NCBI GenBank assembly: GCA_029974695.1
Contig: JARKQW010000175.1
Coordinates: 1-33,866, forward strand
From: Syntrophobacteraceae bacterium
Lineage (GTDB): Bacteria; Desulfobacterota; Syntrophobacteria; Syntrophobacterales; Syntrophobacteraceae
Length of the DNA stretch: 33,866 nucleotides
Direction: 5' to 3'
Shown here: piece by piece, positions 15,130-33,866 of the stretch
Layout: each line of letters begins with the position of its first letter
Position numbering within the stretch: the first letter of the stretch is position 1
The notes under the pieces: generated by a model
What the model was told of the DNA's origin: nothing
What the model saw: the letters and a program-made list of their open reading frames with translations, nothing else
The model's database searches: none
Position numbers and translations under genes: made by a program

Positions 15130-15660
15130 ATGACAGAAAGGCCACATCCGCTGGTAGGTATCGTAATGGGAAGCGATTCCGATCTTCCCGTCATGTCGGG
15201 GGCGATTCAGGTGCTCGAGGACTTCGGTCTCCCCTACGAGGTGCAAATCCTTTCGGCTCACCGCTGTCCCGACGAGACGGCGAGCTACGCCCGGGAATCG
15301 GCTGCCAAAGGCCTGAAGGTCCTCATTGCCGGGGCGGGTTGGGCGGCCCATCTGGCAGGGGCCCTGGCGGCTCAAAGCACCCTTCCCGTGATCGGGATCC
15401 CCATCGACTCGTCCCCTCTCCAGGGTTTGGATGCATTGCTTTCCACGGCCCAGATGCCCCCGGGAGTCCCCGTAGCCACAATGTCCATCGGCAAGGGAGG
15501 AGCACAGAACGCCGCGCTTTTTGCCGTCCAGATCCTGGCGCTCCTGGACCCGAACCTGGCGCGGAAGCTGGAAAATCATAAGCAGGATATGAAACGAGAC
15601 GTGCTCCTGCACAAGAACAATAAATTGCAGGAACACCTCTCGGAGCGAAAGACCTCGTGA
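15130..15660 (+). CDS. purE: 5-(carboxyamino)imidazole ribonucleotide mutase
   Basis: PurE moves the carboxyl group of N5-CAIR to give CAIR. The 176-residue protein has GIVMGSDSDLPVM and ILSAHRCPDE, the active-site Ser-Ala-His-Arg stretch, then LIAGAGWAAHLAG. PVIGIPIDSSPLQGLDALLST and MPPGVPVATMSIGKGGAQNAALFAVQIL complete the fold. The glycine-rich loop reads GAGWAAHLAG where E. coli has GAGGAAHLPG. SAHR and the AAHL histidine are kept, so a class I mutase is expected; a PurK partner is not in the window. A lysine-rich C-terminal tail of about 20 residues extends past the core. tsaC starts seven bases after the stop. Confidence 0.93.
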   Translation: MTERPHPLVGIVMGSDSDLPVMSGAIQVLEDFGLPYEVQILSAHRCPDETASYARESAAKGLKVLIAGAGWAAHLAGALAAQSTLPVIGIPIDSSPLQGLDALLSTAQMPPGVPVATMSIGKGGAQNAALFAVQILALLDPNLARKLENHKQDMKRDVLLHKNNKLQEHLSERKTS

Positions 15661-15667
15661 GGCGGAC

Positions 15668-16324
15668 ATGAAGTATCGGGACCGGATTTGGAGAATCAAC
15701 GGGTCCGGGCCGCCGGATCCGTTCATCGCCGAGGCTTCGGCACGGCTGGCAAGGGACGGGGTGGTGATCTATCCCACGGAAACCTTTTACGGCCTGGGAG
15801 CCAATCCCTTCTCGGCCGATGCGGTCCTCCGGGCCTACCGGATCAAGAGAAGATCCCTCGCCAAAGCGATGCCGCTCATCGCCTCCGATATCGCTGCGGT
15901 GCGCAACGTCGCCGCCGACTGGAGTCCTTCCACGGACCTGCTCGTCCGCGCCTTTTGGCCGGGGCCCCTGACCTTGATCCTTCCCACCGCCGTCCCGTTC
16001 CCTTCAATGTTGCTGACCGGGCCGGGAAAGATCGCCGTGCGGGTTTCCTCCCACCCCGTAGCCGGAGCGCTTGCGACCGCAGTAGGTGGACTTGTGACCG
16101 CAACGAGCGCCAACATTGCCGGAAGTTCCCCCATTGCGGACCCGGCAGAGATCCCTCCGGACCTGCTCCGGGAAGTGGACGGAATGCTGGATGCAGGGAC
16201 GCTCCCGGGGAACTTGCCGTCCACCGTCCTGGATGTAAGCCGTCCGGTACCTCGGCTGGTGCGTGAGGGCTGTCTTCCCGCGGAACTAATCGCCCGGGCC
16301 TTGAGTCGTCGGACTTCCTGGTAA
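15668..16324 (+). CDS. tsaC: L-threonylcarbamoyladenylate synthase (Sua5/YrdC/TsaC family)
   Basis: This enzyme makes threonylcarbamoyl-AMP from threonine, bicarbonate and ATP, the first step in t6A37 tRNA modification. The 218-residue single-domain protein has the YrdC signatures: VVIYPTETFYGLGANPF, then a KRR-LAKAMPLI segment that binds RNA/ATP, WPGPLTLIL, VRVSSHPVA, TSANIAGS, and PSTVLD with a final VREG. It lacks the C-terminal Sua5 domain, so it is of the short TsaC type. The ATG lies seven bases after purE, preceded by a purine-rich AGGCGG, so it is probably read from the purine transcript. Confidence 0.92.
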   Translation: MKYRDRIWRINGSGPPDPFIAEASARLARDGVVIYPTETFYGLGANPFSADAVLRAYRIKRRSLAKAMPLIASDIAAVRNVAADWSPSTDLLVRAFWPGPLTLILPTAVPFPSMLLTGPGKIAVRVSSHPVAGALATAVGGLVTATSANIAGSSPIADPAEIPPDLLREVDGMLDAGTLPGNLPSTVLDVSRPVPRLVREGCLPAELIARALSRRTSW

Positions 16325-16393: not shown

Positions 16394-18502
16394 ATGGACC
16401 CTTCCCTGATGATCTTGTTGGTTTTGCTCACGGCTTCGGCGGTGGTGTTTCTTTGCGCCCGTCGCTGGAAGACCCTTGCGCGCCGGGAAGTACGAGTTCT
16501 TCTGACGGGGGGAGGCACCGGGGGACACGTGAATCCCGCCTTGGCCATCGCCGAAGACATCAAGAAACGGGACCCCTGCGCCAAGTTTCTGTATGTGGGG
16601 GTGAGAGGCAAAGCGGAGAGCGTGATTGTTCGTCGAGCGGGATACCCGTTGTGGTTCGTTTTTTCCGAGGGGTTTCCCGGTCTCAAGCCTTCTTTCCGGT
16701 GTGTGCGTTTTCTGTTCAAGCTGGGACTGGGAGTCGTCCAGTCTGTGGCGTACCTCCTAATATTCGCCCCTCGCTGGGTGATCGCTACGGGAGGATACGT
16801 GAGCGCTCCCGTCATCCTTGCCGCCTTGATCCTTCGAACCCTTCGCGTTTCCCCGGCCAAGGTCTTTCTTCACGAGCAAAACAGCATCCCGGGTCAGCTG
16901 AACGGTCTTTTAGGGAGATACGTGGACCGCGTGCTCCTCACCTTTCCTCAAACCCTTTCCTTTTTCCCGAGAAACGGGGTCGTCACCGGTTACCCCATCC
17001 GCAAATCCATTGCCGTGAAGCCCCGTCAGGAAGCACTGGAGAGCCTGCCGTTTCGGATTCCCGATGGCAAACGGGTGGTTTTCGCCTTCGGGGGGTCCCA
17101 GGGAGCCCGCACCATCAACCGGGCCGTTGTGGACTCCTTGCCCCACCTCCTGCCCCATGGCCGGGAGATCTTCATCATTCACGGAACCGGCCTGGCAAGA
17201 TCGGCGGATTACGATGCCGCCGCGGACACTCTCGATCGAATCGAAAAGACCCTCACGCCCGAACAGAAGAATTCCCTTGCCCAATGCTATTACCGGCAGG
17301 ACTATTTCCATAACATTGCCGATATCTACTCCGTCTGCGACTTGATTGTGTGCCGAAGCGGAGCCGGAAGCCTGAACGAGATATCCTGTGTGGGAAAGCC
17401 TGCGGTTCTCATCCCCAAGGCCAATCTGCCCGGCGATCACCAGGTGATGAACGCACGCACCATGAAACATTGCGGGGCAGCCGTGATCCTATTTGAAGAC
17501 ACCGTGGTGGAGGCGGGAAGAATCCTCGAGAAACTGGAAGGACGCGTGCTGGCGGAATGTATCCTCCAGCTTCTCAAGGACCCGTCCACCCTGGAACAAA
17601 TGGCTCGAAACAGCCGGAGCTTTTTGAGGCAGCAGGCAAACGACCGTATTTTGAACGAGATCTACGGAAAGAACCAAGCCGTTGCATCCTCGGAACTCGA
17701 CCTCGTCAAGGTGCCCTTTCGACCCCTTCTCAGCAACCAGCAGCTGCTGCAGACTTTGAGCGCCGCATATCGGAGGGCCCCCGACCAATATCACCCCCTC
17801 TCCGTGATAGGGGATGAAAACGACTTGCACTACTACCAGCATCGGGCTTCCGGGCTCCTGAGTCATGAAGCCTGGCAGGATCGGAACGTGGGCGTAAAGC
17901 TGACGGGCCTCACCCTGCACCGGGAGAAGATCCCCACCCTTCTCCATATGCTCACGGATCGAACGCCGGTACACTGGGTGAAACGGATCCTGGGGGGAGA
18001 TTTTGAGCAGGTCGGCTTCATTCGCCGCAATATTATCCAGGCGATTCAAGTCATGGGCCACTTCGATGCGGAAGTGGAACAGGCCCTTCTCACAGCCATG
18101 GAAGACCCGTATTACGAGGTTCGGTCCCAAGCCTGCGCCGCGCTGGCCCGCTTCGGCTCCTACGGATCCGGAAAGGAAGAATGGTTTCAGGCCCTTGTGA
18201 AAAGGCTGAATGAACCGTGTTTCGAGGTGGTGGTGCAGGCGGCCGAGGCATTGGGCGAAATAGGGACCAACTCCCGAGCCCTGGAGATCCTGCTCAGACT
18301 TCGAGAGCACCACTACTGGCAGGTACGGGATGCGGCCCTCAAAGGGGTAAAACGCCTGTTGGAACGAGGAACGATCACGCCCTCCCCGCATCTGAGCTCC
18401 GAGCTCCTGGGCTTCATTCTGACGGCTACGGACTTTCGCCCTCATTTCTCCATCAAGCAGACCTACAAGTCCGTTCGGGACCTACTGAATTCCGAGCCCT
18501 GA
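16394..18502 (+). CDS. MurG-like glycosyltransferase fused to a HEAT-like repeat domain
   Basis: MurG adds GlcNAc to lipid I on the inner membrane face. This 702-residue protein is about twice the usual length. Residues 5-22 form an N-terminal membrane helix. Residues about 33-420 are a MurG-type GT-B fold: LTGGGTGGHVNPALAIA (His45), HEQNSIPGQLNGLLGRY near 160, FGGSQGARTIN near 235, and CRSGAGSLNEIS near 320, where MurG has the UDP-GlcNAc-binding acidic residue, then DHQVMNA near 350. Residues about 490-670 hold HEAT-like helical pairs (for example EVRSQACAALARFGS, EVVVQAAEALGEIG, QVRDAALKGVKRLL). A divergent MraY follows 68 bases later. Acceptor, donor and the role of the HEAT part are unknown; it could be a MurG paralogue or this organism's only MurG. 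Confidence 0.85.
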   Translation: MDPSLMILLVLLTASAVVFLCARRWKTLARREVRVLLTGGGTGGHVNPALAIAEDIKKRDPCAKFLYVGVRGKAESVIVRRAGYPLWFVFSEGFPGLKPSFRCVRFLFKLGLGVVQSVAYLLIFAPRWVIATGGYVSAPVILAALILRTLRVSPAKVFLHEQNSIPGQLNGLLGRYVDRVLLTFPQTLSFFPRNGVVTGYPIRKSIAVKPRQEALESLPFRIPDGKRVVFAFGGSQGARTINRAVVDSLPHLLPHGREIFIIHGTGLARSADYDAAADTLDRIEKTLTPEQKNSLAQCYYRQDYFHNIADIYSVCDLIVCRSGAGSLNEISCVGKPAVLIPKANLPGDHQVMNARTMKHCGAAVILFEDTVVEAGRILEKLEGRVLAECILQLLKDPSTLEQMARNSRSFLRQQANDRILNEIYGKNQAVASSELDLVKVPFRPLLSNQQLLQTLSAAYRRAPDQYHPLSVIGDENDLHYYQHRASGLLSHEAWQDRNVGVKLTGLTLHREKIPTLLHMLTDRTPVHWVKRILGGDFEQVGFIRRNIIQAIQVMGHFDAEVEQALLTAMEDPYYEVRSQACAALARFGSYGSGKEEWFQALVKRLNEPCFEVVVQAAEALGEIGTNSRALEILLRLREHHYWQVRDAALKGVKRLLERGTITPSPHLSSELLGFILTATDFRPHFSIKQTYKSVRDLLNSEP

Positions 18503-18570: not shown

Positions 18571-19680
18571 ATGATTTATGAAATCTGCAACATCCTGATT
18601 CCCCTCTCGGACGTCTTCTCATTCTGCAGGCTGGTGAACTACATCACCTTTCGCGCCATCATGGCGGCCTTGACGTCCGTGATCTTTATCTTCCTGGTCA
18701 GTCGCCATTTCATTCTGTTCATGCATCACCGCAGCCTCTTCGACCAGGTACGGGATACGGGGGTTCACTCGGCATTCGACAAGAGCGGCACCCCCACCAT
18801 GGGGGGAGTTCTCATCATCGGCTCCGTATTGAGCTCCATGCTCCTGTGGGGGAACTGGCACAATCCCTTTCTCCTGTGCTCGGTGGTCGGGATGTTGTGG
18901 TTCGGGGGCCTGGGATTCATGGACGACCTGTCCAAAGTGAAGCGGAAGAGCGGAGACCGGGGACTGTCCGAACGAACGAAACTCTTTCTCCAGGGCTTGT
19001 TCGCCCTCCTTTTTGCCTGGGTGTGCGTGGGCCCCTACGCCCCTCTGGGCGCTCCCCTGGCCACCAAGCTCTACATCCCTTTTTACAAGCACGCCGTCTG
19101 GGACCCGGGACCCTATTTCTACGGGGCGTTCATCTTCTTCTTTGTCATCTTTGTCTCCAATGCCGTGAACATCACCGACGGGTTGGACGGGCTGGCCATC
19201 ACTCCGTCCCTGTTCGTGGTGGGCGTCCTGGGCATCTTTGCGTACGTGGAAGGAAATCGGATCTACTCCGCGTATCTCTATTACCCCTATCTGCGGGGCG
19301 TGAGTGAATTGACCATTTTCGGAGCGGCTTTCGTAGGGGGCGGATTGGGTTTCCTGTGGTACAATGCCTACCCGGCGCAGATCTTTATGGGGGATACGGG
19401 GTCCCTGGCCATAGGAGGAATCATGGCCGTGATCTCCGTGCTCCTCAAGCAGGAAATGCTTTTCCCTCTGTTGGGGGGCTTGTTTCTCGCCGAGGCCCTC
19501 ACAAGCCAGTTTCAAGACAAGGTCGGGGTTCGCTGGTTGGGTCGCCGGGTCTTTTTCCGGGCACCTTTGCACCACAACCTGCAGTACAAGGGCAATGCCG
19601 AAACCAAGGTGGTGATCCGTCTTTGGATCGTTGCCGGGATCCTGGCCCTCATTTCCCTGGCCACGCTAAAACTGCGCTGA
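18571..19680 (+). CDS. MraY-family phosphotransferase, divergent
   Basis: MraY transfers phospho-MurNAc-pentapeptide to undecaprenyl phosphate, giving lipid I. The 369-residue protein has about ten hydrophobic helices and the MraY marks: KSGTPTMGG after the first helices, GFMDDLSK with Asp118-Asp119, NAVNITDGLDGLA with Asn197, Asn200 and Asp203, and FMGDTGSLA with Asp275. At 334-336, where MraY normally has HHH (PxHHHxELKG), it reads PLHHNLQYKG, so the third histidine is Asn. The N-terminus and loop sizes otherwise match MraY rather than WecA. A GGGAGGA lies ten bases before the ATG. It is paired with the MurG-HEAT gene and no other mur or fts genes are nearby, so a paralogue with altered substrate is possible but not shown. 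Confidence 0.88.
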   Translation: MIYEICNILIPLSDVFSFCRLVNYITFRAIMAALTSVIFIFLVSRHFILFMHHRSLFDQVRDTGVHSAFDKSGTPTMGGVLIIGSVLSSMLLWGNWHNPFLLCSVVGMLWFGGLGFMDDLSKVKRKSGDRGLSERTKLFLQGLFALLFAWVCVGPYAPLGAPLATKLYIPFYKHAVWDPGPYFYGAFIFFFVIFVSNAVNITDGLDGLAITPSLFVVGVLGIFAYVEGNRIYSAYLYYPYLRGVSELTIFGAAFVGGGLGFLWYNAYPAQIFMGDTGSLAIGGIMAVISVLLKQEMLFPLLGGLFLAEALTSQFQDKVGVRWLGRRVFFRAPLHHNLQYKGNAETKVVIRLWIVAGILALISLATLKLR

Positions 19681-30359: not shown

Positions 30360-30444
30360 GTCGCAACGACACGGGCGGCAGGGATTTTGGCACCATGCGG
30401 CCGAGATCCGGAATCAGGCCCGGGAAAAATCCAGGGAGGACCAA

Positions 30445-30474
30445 TTGACAGATTTCATCGGCAAATGTTTTACT
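30445..30474 (+). promoter_or_regulatory. candidate promoter for dnaE
   Basis: A perfect TTGACA at 30445-30450 is followed, after 18 bases, by TTTACT at 30469-30474 (four of six consensus bases). The predicted start is near 30481, about 60 bases upstream of the dnaE ATG. The rest of the 30232-30542 gap holds only the divergent promoter. Confidence 0.5.
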
Positions 30475-30542
30475 GCCTTTCGAGGTCCATTCCACTTTTG
30501 GATTCCATCCGCGAAAACCCTCCTCGGGAGGAAAGGCTGCCC

Positions 30543-33500
30543 ATGAATCCCTTTGTTCATCTTCACGTCCACACCCAGTACAGTCTGCTGGACGGAGCAA
30601 TTCGCCTGAAAGATCTCCTGGAGACGGCGGTCGGCTACCAGATGCCTGCCGTCGCCATCACCGACCACGGCAACATGTTCGGCGCCCTCGAGTTCTACGA
30701 CATGGCCCGGAAAGCCGGGATCAAGCCCATCATCGGGTGCGAGGTCTATCTCGCTCCCCGGAGTCGTTTGGACCGCCACACCGGCGGGGAGCTCACCGCC
30801 AACGGGGAAGAGGACCGCAACTACCACCTGGTGTTGCTGGCCAAGGACCTGACCGGATATCGGAACCTGCTCAAGCTGGTCACCCGGGCGTATCTCGAAG
30901 GCTTTTACTACAAGCCCCGAATCGACAAGGCCCTGCTGAGGCAATACCACGAAGGCCTGATCGGTCTTTCGAGTTGCCTCAAGGGAGAGATTGCCTCCCT
31001 GCTTCTGCGAAACCAGGACGGCACCGCACGAAAGACGGCCCTGGAATATGCGGAGATATTCGGGCCGGAGAATTTCTACCTGGAGCTTCAGGCAAACGGC
31101 ATACCGGAACAGGATGCGGTCAATGAAACCTTGATCCGCATGGGAAAGGACCTGGGGATTCCCCTGGCGGCGACCAACGACTGTCACTACCTGCGCAAGG
31201 CGGATGCCCGTGCCCACGAAGTGCTTCTGTGCATCCAGACGGGGAAGACCATCCTGGACGAAAAGCGCATGAAGTTCCAGACGGACCACCTCTATTTCAA
31301 GTCCCCCGAGGAAATGGCCCGCGCTTTTTCCCACGTGCCCGAAGCCTTGGAAAACACCCTCGTGATCGCCGAGCGGTGCAACCTGGATCTGCAGCTGGGA
31401 GAGTACCACTTCCCGGACTTCCCCCTGGAACCGGGAGAGACTCTCGAGGACCGTTTTGAGAAGACGGTCATGGAAGGCTTTGAGGAGAGGATCGGTCAAA
31501 TCCGCTCGACTCGGCCCGATTTCACGGACAAGGATCAGCAGGAGTACCGCCAGCGGCTGCGCCTGGAAATGGACGTCATCCGCCGGATGGGATTCGTGGC
31601 CTACTTTCTCATCGTCGCCGATTTCATCAACTACGCCAAGCAGAAGGGAATCCCCGTGGGACCGGGCAGAGGTTCCGCCGCCGGGAGCCTGGTGGCCTTC
31701 GTGATGAAGATCACGGATCTGGATCCCATCGAGCACGGGCTCATTTTCGAACGGTTCCTGAACCTCGAGCGAATCAGCATGCCCGACATTGACGTGGACT
31801 TCTGCGTCCACGGCAGAGAGGAAGTGCTCCGGTACGTTACGGAGAAATACGGGCAGGACCGGGTGGCCCAGATCACCACCTTCGGCACCCTCCAGGCGCG
31901 GGCGGCCATCCGGGACGTGGGACGGGCCTTGGCCATGCCCTACAACGAGGTGGACCGGATCGCCAAGATGATCCCGGCATCCCCGGGGATGACCCTGCAG
32001 AAGGCCTTTCAGGCGGAGCCCCGGCTGGGGGAGCAGCAGCGAAACGATCCCCAGATCAAGGAACTCTTCGAAGTTGCCCTTGCCCTGGAGGGACTCACTC
32101 GACACGCATCCACCCACGCGGCGGGTGTGGTCATCGCCGACAAGCCCATCGTCGAGTACATGCCGCTCTACCGGGGGCAAGACGGGGAAACCGTCACCCA
32201 GTTTCCCATGAAATACGTGGAAAGGGCAGGTCTCATCAAGTTCGATTTCCTGGGTTTGAGAAACCTTACGGTCATCCACAACGCCGTTCAACTGATCCGC
32301 AAAAACCACCACCTGGACATCCGCCCCGAGGCCCTTCCCCTGGACGATCCCGAAACCTATGCGCTCCTGAGCCGCGCCGACACAACGGGGGTATTCCAGC
32401 TGGAAAGTTCGGGAATGAGGGACATCCTGGTTCGCCTTCGCCCCGAGAATTTCGCCGACATTGTCGCCCTGGTAGCCCTTTATCGACCGGGGCCTCTCGA
32501 GAGCGGCATGGTGGACCAGTATATCGACGGCAAACACGGCCTGGCTCCGGTCACCTACGATCTCGAGATGCTGCGCCCCATTCTCGAACCGACCCACGGC
32601 GTCATCCTCTACCAGGAACAGGTCATGAAAATCGCCAGCGTCCTGGCCAATTACACCCTCGGGGAAGCGGACATTCTGCGGCGGGCCATGGGAAAGAAGA
32701 TCCCCGACGTGATGAAGGCCCAACGGGATCGATTCATTTCGGGAGCTAAGGAGAACTCCATCGATCTGGCCAAAGCCAATCACATTTTCGACCTCATGGA
32801 GAAGTTTGCCGGATACGGATTCAACAAATCTCACAGCGCCGCCTATGCCCTCATCGCCTATCAAACCGCCTATCTCAAGGCCCACTTTCCCGTAGAATTC
32901 ATGGCGGCCCTTCTCAATAGCTTTCTCAGCAATTCCGACCAGGTGGTGAAGCTCATCAACCAGTGTCGCGAAAACCAAATCGAGATTCTTCCGCCCGACG
33001 TGAACGCCAGCAGCAACGACTTCACCGTCGTCGAGGGGAAGATCCGCTTCGGCCTGGGGGCTGTGAAGAATGTGGGAGAGACCGCCATCGAGTCCATCCT
33101 TACCGTGCGGGATCAAAACGGGCACTTCCGGTCCATCTATGATTTCTGCCGGCGGGTGGATACCCAGAAGGTGAATCGGAGGGTCCTGGAGCAACTCATC
33201 AAGTGCGGCGCCTTCGACACCATCCACGGCAACCGGGCCCAGGTGCTGGCGGCCGCCGACGACGCCCTGGAAAAGGCCCAGGTGGTGCAGAGAGACCGCC
33301 AGACGGGTCAGATGAACATGTTCGAGCTGCTTCGAAGTCAAAAAGGCAAGACCCCGGCTCTGCCCACGGTGGAACCCTGGGATAACCGCACCACCCTCCA
33401 ATTCGAAAAGGAGGCCCTGGGCTTCTACATTTCCGGTCATCCCCTGGATTTCTACGCGGAACGGATCGCCCGGCTCTGCACCGCCGATACCCAGAGCGTC

Positions 33501-33866
33501 AGTGAGAAGAGGGAAGGGGTCGAGGTCGCCCTTTGCGGTATGGTCACCATCACCAAGGAGTTGACCACCAAGCGGGGAGATCGCATGGCGTTTCTCTCCC
33601 TGGAGGACAAGGAGGGAATCCTCGAAGTGGTGGCCTTCTCGGAAGCGTTCCTGCAGGCCCGCCCCCTGCTCGACAAAGATGAGCCCCTCGTCGTTCTGGG
33701 AAAGGTTCAACACGATGAAAAAGGGACGAAATTGGTGGCCAACCGGATCCTTACCCTGGCCGAAGCTCAGCTCGAATCCGTGGATGCCGTCCGAATCCGC
33801 CTCCGTGCCGAAGACCTCGACAAGGATGCCCTTTCCCGGCTGAGGCACCTGCTCATGAGCCTTGCG
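30543..33866 (+). CDS. dnaE: DNA polymerase III alpha subunit, 3' end cut by the window
   Basis: DnaE is the replicative polymerase catalytic subunit. The frame stays open for 1108 codons to the last base, so only the C-terminal few dozen residues are probably missing. Seen in order: an N-terminal PHP domain (HLHVHTQYSLLDG, ITDHGNMFGALEF, NDCHYL), the palm with FLIVADFINYAK, GPGRGSAAGSLVAFV and PDIDVDF near residues 414-420 (the catalytic aspartates), then YQEQVMKIA and GFNKSHSAAYALIAYQTAYLK, tandem HhH motifs, and the start of an OB fold (EVALCGMVTITKE). GGGAGGAAAGG precedes the ATG at 30543. The gene is divergent from the CAP-domain gene. It is the ordinary DnaE type, not PolC. Confidence 0.97.
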   Translation, partial: MNPFVHLHVHTQYSLLDGAIRLKDLLETAVGYQMPAVAITDHGNMFGALEFYDMARKAGIKPIIGCEVYLAPRSRLDRHTGGELTANGEEDRNYHLVLLAKDLTGYRNLLKLVTRAYLEGFYYKPRIDKALLRQYHEGLIGLSSCLKGEIASLLLRNQDGTARKTALEYAEIFGPENFYLELQANGIPEQDAVNETLIRMGKDLGIPLAATNDCHYLRKADARAHEVLLCIQTGKTILDEKRMKFQTDHLYFKSPEEMARAFSHVPEALENTLVIAERCNLDLQLGEYHFPDFPLEPGETLEDRFEKTVMEGFEERIGQIRSTRPDFTDKDQQEYRQRLRLEMDVIRRMGFVAYFLIVADFINYAKQKGIPVGPGRGSAAGSLVAFVMKITDLDPIEHGLIFERFLNLERISMPDIDVDFCVHGREEVLRYVTEKYGQDRVAQITTFGTLQARAAIRDVGRALAMPYNEVDRIAKMIPASPGMTLQKAFQAEPRLGEQQRNDPQIKELFEVALALEGLTRHASTHAAGVVIADKPIVEYMPLYRGQDGETVTQFPMKYVERAGLIKFDFLGLRNLTVIHNAVQLIRKNHHLDIRPEALPLDDPETYALLSRADTTGVFQLESSGMRDILVRLRPENFADIVALVALYRPGPLESGMVDQYIDGKHGLAPVTYDLEMLRPILEPTHGVILYQEQVMKIASVLANYTLGEADILRRAMGKKIPDVMKAQRDRFISGAKENSIDLAKANHIFDLMEKFAGYGFNKSHSAAYALIAYQTAYLKAHFPVEFMAALLNSFLSNSDQVVKLINQCRENQIEILPPDVNASSNDFTVVEGKIRFGLGAVKNVGETAIESILTVRDQNGHFRSIYDFCRRVDTQKVNRRVLEQLIKCGAFDTIHGNRAQVLAAADDALEKAQVVQRDRQTGQMNMFELLRSQKGKTPALPTVEPWDNRTTLQFEKEALGFYISGHPLDFYAERIARLCTADTQSVSEKREGVEVALCGMVTITKELTTKRGDRMAFLSLEDKEGILEVVAFSEAFLQARPLLDKDEPLVVLGKVQHDEKGTKLVANRILTLAEAQLESVDAVRIRLRAEDLDKDALSRLRHLLMSLA

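Follow-up and report, generated by a model that had tools for sequence, protein, structure and literature searches.

The closest described relatives of the locus reported here belong to the murein pathway. MurG, the essential lipid II synthase, is known structurally from E. coli (1F0K, 1NLM) and P. aeruginosa (3S2U). Canonical members have about 360 residues, and their gene usually lies in the dcw cluster between ftsW and murC, a location that is typical of MurG and not defining for it. The E. coli enzyme co-precipitates with MraY (PMC2170320), and MurG also binds Mur ligases (PMC6420597). MurJ, a lipid II flippase of the MOP family (6CC4, 7WAX, 5T77), has 14 helices in E. coli with both the N- and C-termini in the cytoplasm, and its residues R18, R24, D39, R52, and R270 are essential there (PMC4790310). 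The same review speaks against a coupling of synthesis and export: in vesicles of E. coli, the synthesis of lipid II and its translocation were not coupled, and MurG did not bring the latter about. The natural fusions on record for the pathway are MurE-MurF, MurB-MurC, MurG-MurC, MurC-Ddl, and MraY-MurG (PMC6420597).

We analysed a 33,866-nucleotide stretch of DNA (the window) from a Syntrophobacteraceae genome, G000, that encodes a MurG of an unusual kind, hereafter MurG-HEAT. The protein shares with canonical MurG the GT-B fold, the donor and acceptor motifs, the active-site residues, and the place in the murein pathway. It differs in having about 700 residues, an added N-terminal membrane helix and C-terminal HEAT domain, an insert in the C-terminal half of the glycosyltransferase (about residues 266-300), a gene outside the dcw cluster, and a profile score under the NCBIfam murG cut-off. 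Like the fusions listed above, its relatives in sister families join pathway functions in one polypeptide, but none of those fusions pairs MurG with a flippase or a HEAT domain.

Architecture and active site of the 702-residue protein

The murG-HEAT gene (positions 16394-18502, forward strand, as are all features of the window given below unless stated) is a single uninterrupted open reading frame of 702 codons and the sole MurG of its genome. The first-pass annotation had described a MurG-type GT-B enzyme with a membrane helix and a HEAT-like C-terminus, an architecture borne out by Pfam, AlphaFold2, and Foldseek. The N-terminal membrane helix (residues 3-31, 16400-16486) is helical in the AlphaFold2 model and has a hydropathy maximum of 2.64. 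It is followed by the GT28/MurG GT-B domain (residues 33-422, 16490-17659), to which Pfam assigned Glyco_transf_28 (residues 35-181, 4.2e-25) and Glyco_tran_28_C (residues 228-409, 1.9e-22), and which is further delimited by NCBIfam, PDB sequence matches, Foldseek, and our alignment. A variable linker (residues 423-447, 17660-17734), with pLDDT below 50 at residues 428-436 and zero invariant residues, leads into an alpha-helical HEAT domain of about five helical hairpins (about residues 448-702, 17735-18499). Within it, HEAT_2 matched residues 563-650 (18080-18343) in two stretches at 2e-16, and the HEAT and HEAT_PBS models also matched the C-terminal part. All Pfam matches were at or above the curated cut-offs.

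Structural evidence agrees with these assignments. The AlphaFold2 model, built with 26 relatives, has a pLDDT of 86.9 and displays the helix at residues 3-31, then the GT-B fold, then helices over residues 448-699, with helical hairpins from 448 (or, read more narrowly, 475) to 657; together with the HEAT_2 match, this identifies the C-terminal region as an alpha-solenoid. The top Foldseek matches were the MurG structures 3s2u, 1f0k, and 1nlm (TM-score of 0.88 to 3s2u by target length). In sequence searches of the PDB, the glycosyltransferase part had its best matches to MurG of P. aeruginosa, E. coli, and A. baumannii, and the C-terminal part to designed alphaRep HEAT proteins. Full-length matches of 46-67% identity were detected in 36 other genomes of the class, Syntrophobacteria or its GTDB equivalent, so the architecture is not a product of chance.

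The motifs GGGTGGH, HEQN, GGSQGAR, R..E, and DHQ are intact. Twelve of the active-site positions are invariant in an alignment of 37 sequences, namely T42, H45, Y135, H160, E161, N163, N170, S235, N242, R321, E329, and Q350, which we take to be the equivalents of E. coli T15, H18, Y105, H124, E125, N127, N134, S191, N198, R260, E268, and Q288. The stretch SGAGSLNEIS had been read as an altered donor motif, and this did not hold: CRSGAGSLNE aligns with CRAGALTVSE of P. aeruginosa MurG, and since R321 and E329 stay in the CR(S/A)GAxxxxE register and are invariant in the 37 sequences, the catalytic site is not altered there. Judging from these residues, MurG-HEAT is most likely a catalytically complete MurG, predicted to transfer GlcNAc from UDP-GlcNAc to lipid I.

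The NCBIfam murG model (TIGR01133) matched residues 33-422 at 2.8e-65 and 220.6 bits, short of the equivalog cut-off of 250.25, which none of the searched relatives passed (236 bits for the best member of the class). This is the observation that favours a GT28 paralogue devoted to another lipid-linked sugar, with the real MurG missing or replaced. We regard such a paralogue as very improbable and rejected it in view of copy number, active site, and gene neighbourhood. A single match to the 702-residue protein exists in the genome, and a single murG-model match is full-length, the other reaching 44 bits over half of the model; no second, normal MurG was found in G000 or in the relatives searched, which nevertheless hold the rest of the murein pathway. 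The invariant active-site positions, the adjacent mraY, and the fusion to MurJ in sister families further argue for a genuine MurG. The cut-off is a naming threshold and not a property of the enzyme.

The HEAT domain shares with HEAT and alphaRep-type repeat proteins (PF13646, PF02985, PF03130) a sequence match over residues 556-652 and the helical hairpins. It differs from them in being fused to a murein enzyme and in having one strongly conserved non-repeat signature, GGDFxxVGFIRRN (residues 534-546, 17993-18031), situated between hairpins. Across three classes, including families f7 and f32, 20 of the 255 positions of the domain are invariant: Y480, L489, G500, G505, G534, D536, V540, F542, R544, R545, D571, Y573, E575, E611, V612, G621, W642, D680, F681, and F685. 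Six of these (G534, D536, V540, F542, R544, and R545) lie in the signature. The HEAT domain is almost as conserved as the enzyme, with mean majority fractions in the alignment of 0.61 and 0.67, respectively. A conserved non-repeat signature kept in three classes fits a specific contact, and by its conservation GGDFxxVGFIRRN is likely a contact surface. A defence-system role of the HEAT part was also considered and dropped, as PADLOC returned just a weak, generic HEAT match. A regulatory role could be imagined, in which the solenoid folds onto the GT-B cleft and gates MurG by auto-inhibition under the control of a signal or partner in the cytoplasm. The flexible linker at 423-447 and the position of the HEAT domain immediately C-terminal to the donor-binding half would suit it, but there is no evidence for a signal, and we consider such gating improbable.

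Distribution and gene neighbourhood

Of the 56 genomes of the class, 53 have MurG-HEAT. When 395 genomes were drawn evenly from the phylum, it occurred in 20, and a MurG above the normal cut-off occurred in 338 of the same 395. Outside the class, it was present in all three genomes of the class of f7, beside mraY, and in the single genome of f32 (1/1), where mraY is not adjacent. The N-terminal helix is present in the proteins of f1, f2, and f3 and absent from those of f7 and f32. MurG-HEAT is thus the standard MurG of three classes. The possibility that it had already been described as the standard of its lineage proved half right: the class does use it as its standard MurG, and no published description was found. 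Searches for MurG-HEAT, MurJ-MurG, and Syntrophobacter MurG returned no relevant description in the CC-licensed literature searched.

The majority of these genomes are metagenome-assembled, and two genes joined by gene calling or assembly could in principle mimic such a protein. That 53 of 56 genomes of the class share the architecture, single-contig assemblies included, and that the window contains no N led us to reject this reading, which is hardly credible; the lone odd split, in G422, sits at N runs.

The mraY gene (lipid I synthase, 18571-19680) starts about 70 bp downstream of murG-HEAT and is the only mraY above the cut-off in the genome. Upstream lie the conserved neighbours purE (AIR carboxylase, 15130-15660) and a Sua5/YrdC gene (15668-16324), and the order purD-purE-sua5-murG-HEAT-mraY recurs in much of the class. 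In each genome examined, the sole above-cut-off mraY directly adjoins murG-HEAT; the pair was observed at the examined loci of f1, f2, f3, f5, and f6, and also in f7, from another class. Elsewhere in the window, a 1144-codon open frame on the reverse strand (30414-33848) has zero Pfam matches.

The dcw cluster of G000 lies on contig C141 (L159) and contains mraZ, mraW, a PASTA-type FtsI, MurE, MurF, MurD, FtsW, MurB, and FtsQ as assigned by Pfam, and MurC as assigned by position and a Mur-ligase match. No mraY was found between murF and murD, and no murG between ftsW and murC, so the normal second MurG in a dcw cluster that the first-pass annotation had suggested looking for is absent. Both genes are likewise lacking there in G005, G035, G038, and G029; at dcw loci L160, L162, L163, and L164, as at L159, the run murE-murF-murD-ftsW-murC is contiguous without them, and the murD-murC spacing in further genomes agrees with their absence. 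Both murG and mraY have therefore left the dcw cluster and now stand together. An apparent murE-murF fusion was rejected: the two genes adjoin and share a reading frame, but each has its own start and its own stop codon. In G001, of the same genus and 93% complete, neither murG nor mraY was found; because the two are neighbours, a missing contig is the most likely explanation.

The HEAT domain would dock a partner, and MraY is the first choice because the gene pair persists in two classes and E. coli MurG and MraY share one complex (PMC2170320). The unlinked mraY of f32 counts against a MraY-MurG assembly. It also favours a view of the HEAT domain as a self-contained add-on for homo-oligomerisation or stability, with no other pathway partner and with the MurJ fusion described below as a by-product of co-expression. 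MurG oligomers are known elsewhere (PMC6420597), and a hexameric MurG crystal structure is reported (PMC8256705). The invariance of the 20 HEAT residues over three classes, which fits a specific contact, and the mraY linkage kept in two classes speak against such an add-on, and we hold it to be rather unlikely.

MurJ-MurG-HEAT fusions in sister families

In f5 and f6, families of the same class, the homologous gene is an uninterrupted open reading frame of 1204-1247 codons, found in 13 genomes (L124:3228-6830 in G038, L125:8133-11795 in G039, and 11 more). Its N-terminal extension of about 500 residues is a complete MurJ, followed in the same chain by GT28 and HEAT_2. The MurJ parts scored 276 and 306 bits with NCBIfam murJ_mviN (cut-off 235.55) and 5.3e-77 and 1.3e-89 with Pfam MurJ. 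In G038 the fusion lies between sua5 and mraY, the position of the shorter gene in the window, giving the shared order purD-purE-sua5-(murJ-)murG-HEAT-mraY. These fusions thus share with described MurJ the fold, the key charged residues, and passage of the NCBIfam and Pfam cut-offs, and differ in also carrying MurG and HEAT; the 702-residue protein has no MurJ domain and, at most, a single helix where TM14 would lie. The tri-fusion is a more surprising object than the 702-residue MurG-HEAT.

Equivalents of MurJ R18, R24, D39, R52, and R270 are kept in the fusions (SR..GF.RE, TD, FRR, AQRL). Both halves are, by conservation, predicted to be competent, including for flippase activity. An AlphaFold2 model of the 1,199-residue fusion of G421 (pLDDT 84.2, pTM 0.63) displayed a MurJ fold and then a MurG fold, with Foldseek TM-scores of 0.86 to 7wax (by target) and 0.86 to 3s2u; at this pTM, the relative arrangement of MurJ, MurG, and HEAT is unreliable. 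The last MurJ helix (492-520) is followed at 529 by the first strand of MurG. As the termini of E. coli MurJ are cytoplasmic, the MurG of the fusion is placed correctly on the cytoplasmic face.

The fusion is the sole MurJ found in G039, G419, G421, G429, and G431. The other f5 genomes, which are most of the family, carry a second, separate, and more ordinary MurJ, and this counts against coupling. Family f4 probably has a MurJ-MurG-HEAT gene as well: G037 holds a HEAT end (L128:6873-7343) and a fusion-type MurJ start (L143), each at a contig end, which is consistent with such a gene and is not proof of it. In G422 the tri-fusion is split between distant sites (C1:1793469 and 3098293) with N runs at both breaks; this split is a scaffolding artefact. 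Those f5 assemblies that consist of a single sequence may be scaffolds, and L232 (G429) has 100 N outside the open reading frame.

The N-terminal helix of the 702-residue protein aligns with MurJ TM14 of the f5 and f6 fusions, and a Trp and basic residues stand at a similar distance from the glycosyltransferase domain in f1, f2, f5, and f6. This helix might be what remains of MurJ, or MurJ might have been fused later to a pre-existing anchor. In our tree, f5 and f6 form one clade (100/99) that is sister to f1 and f2 (96/94), with f3 outermost and long outgroup branches. Unlike the tree, the taxonomy sets f3 in one order with f1 and f2; MurJ was either gained in f5 and f6 or lost in f1 to f3. 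The MurJ-like genes of G000 are separate from murG-HEAT (C50:2745-4196 and C510:6384-7853). The G000 bin has 5.8% contamination, and one of its two MurJ-like genes is possibly foreign. The stand-alone MurJ of f1 and f2 (L134, L139, L152) is divergent, with DFINYLLAGAYF in place of the conserved NLFRRL (R52) stretch, and retains the R18, R24, D39, and R270 positions. Because MurJ is a separate, divergent gene in the order of the 702-residue protein, coupling there is extrapolated from the sister families.

Proposed assembly at the membrane

We propose that the 702-residue protein is probably the sole working MurG of its cell, tethered within a MraY-MurG-flippase assembly in which the HEAT domain serves as cytoplasmic dock. 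The N-terminal helix would hold MurG at the inner surface of the membrane, and the C-terminal solenoid would offer a docking surface on the cytoplasmic side. MraY would then hand lipid I to MurG, and MurG would hand lipid II to the flippase. In f5 and f6, one polypeptide contains both the flippase MurJ and MurG, and the latter would be suspended from the last transmembrane helix of MurJ, which faces the cytoplasm. All three components (MraY, MurG, and flippase) may belong to a single complex in which substrate is channelled. Anchoring in a complex and tuning of activity had both been suggested for the added domain; anchoring is the best-supported idea, through the adjacent mraY and the fusions of the sister families.

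A more far-reaching proposal, which we consider unlikely, is that MurJ-MurG-HEAT acts as a combined synthase and flippase, delivering lipid II directly from the active site of MurG to the cavity of MurJ while the HEAT domain holds MraY. The order of the 702-residue protein would then have lost the flippase part, leaving the last helix of MurJ as the anchor of MurG.

In this class, mraY and murG have moved out of the dcw cluster jointly, and the HEAT domain kept in three classes provides a defined surface with which to find the partner that holds MurG. The lipid II flippase question is still debated (PMC12096821). By gene-fusion logic, the MurJ-MurG fusion supports MurJ as a lipid II flippase. 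Whether lipid II is handed over directly from synthase to flippase is likewise an unsettled question, for which a conserved natural MurJ-MurG fusion is a ready-made test object. The MurJ fusion in the sister families suggests that the making of lipid II and its export are physically linked.
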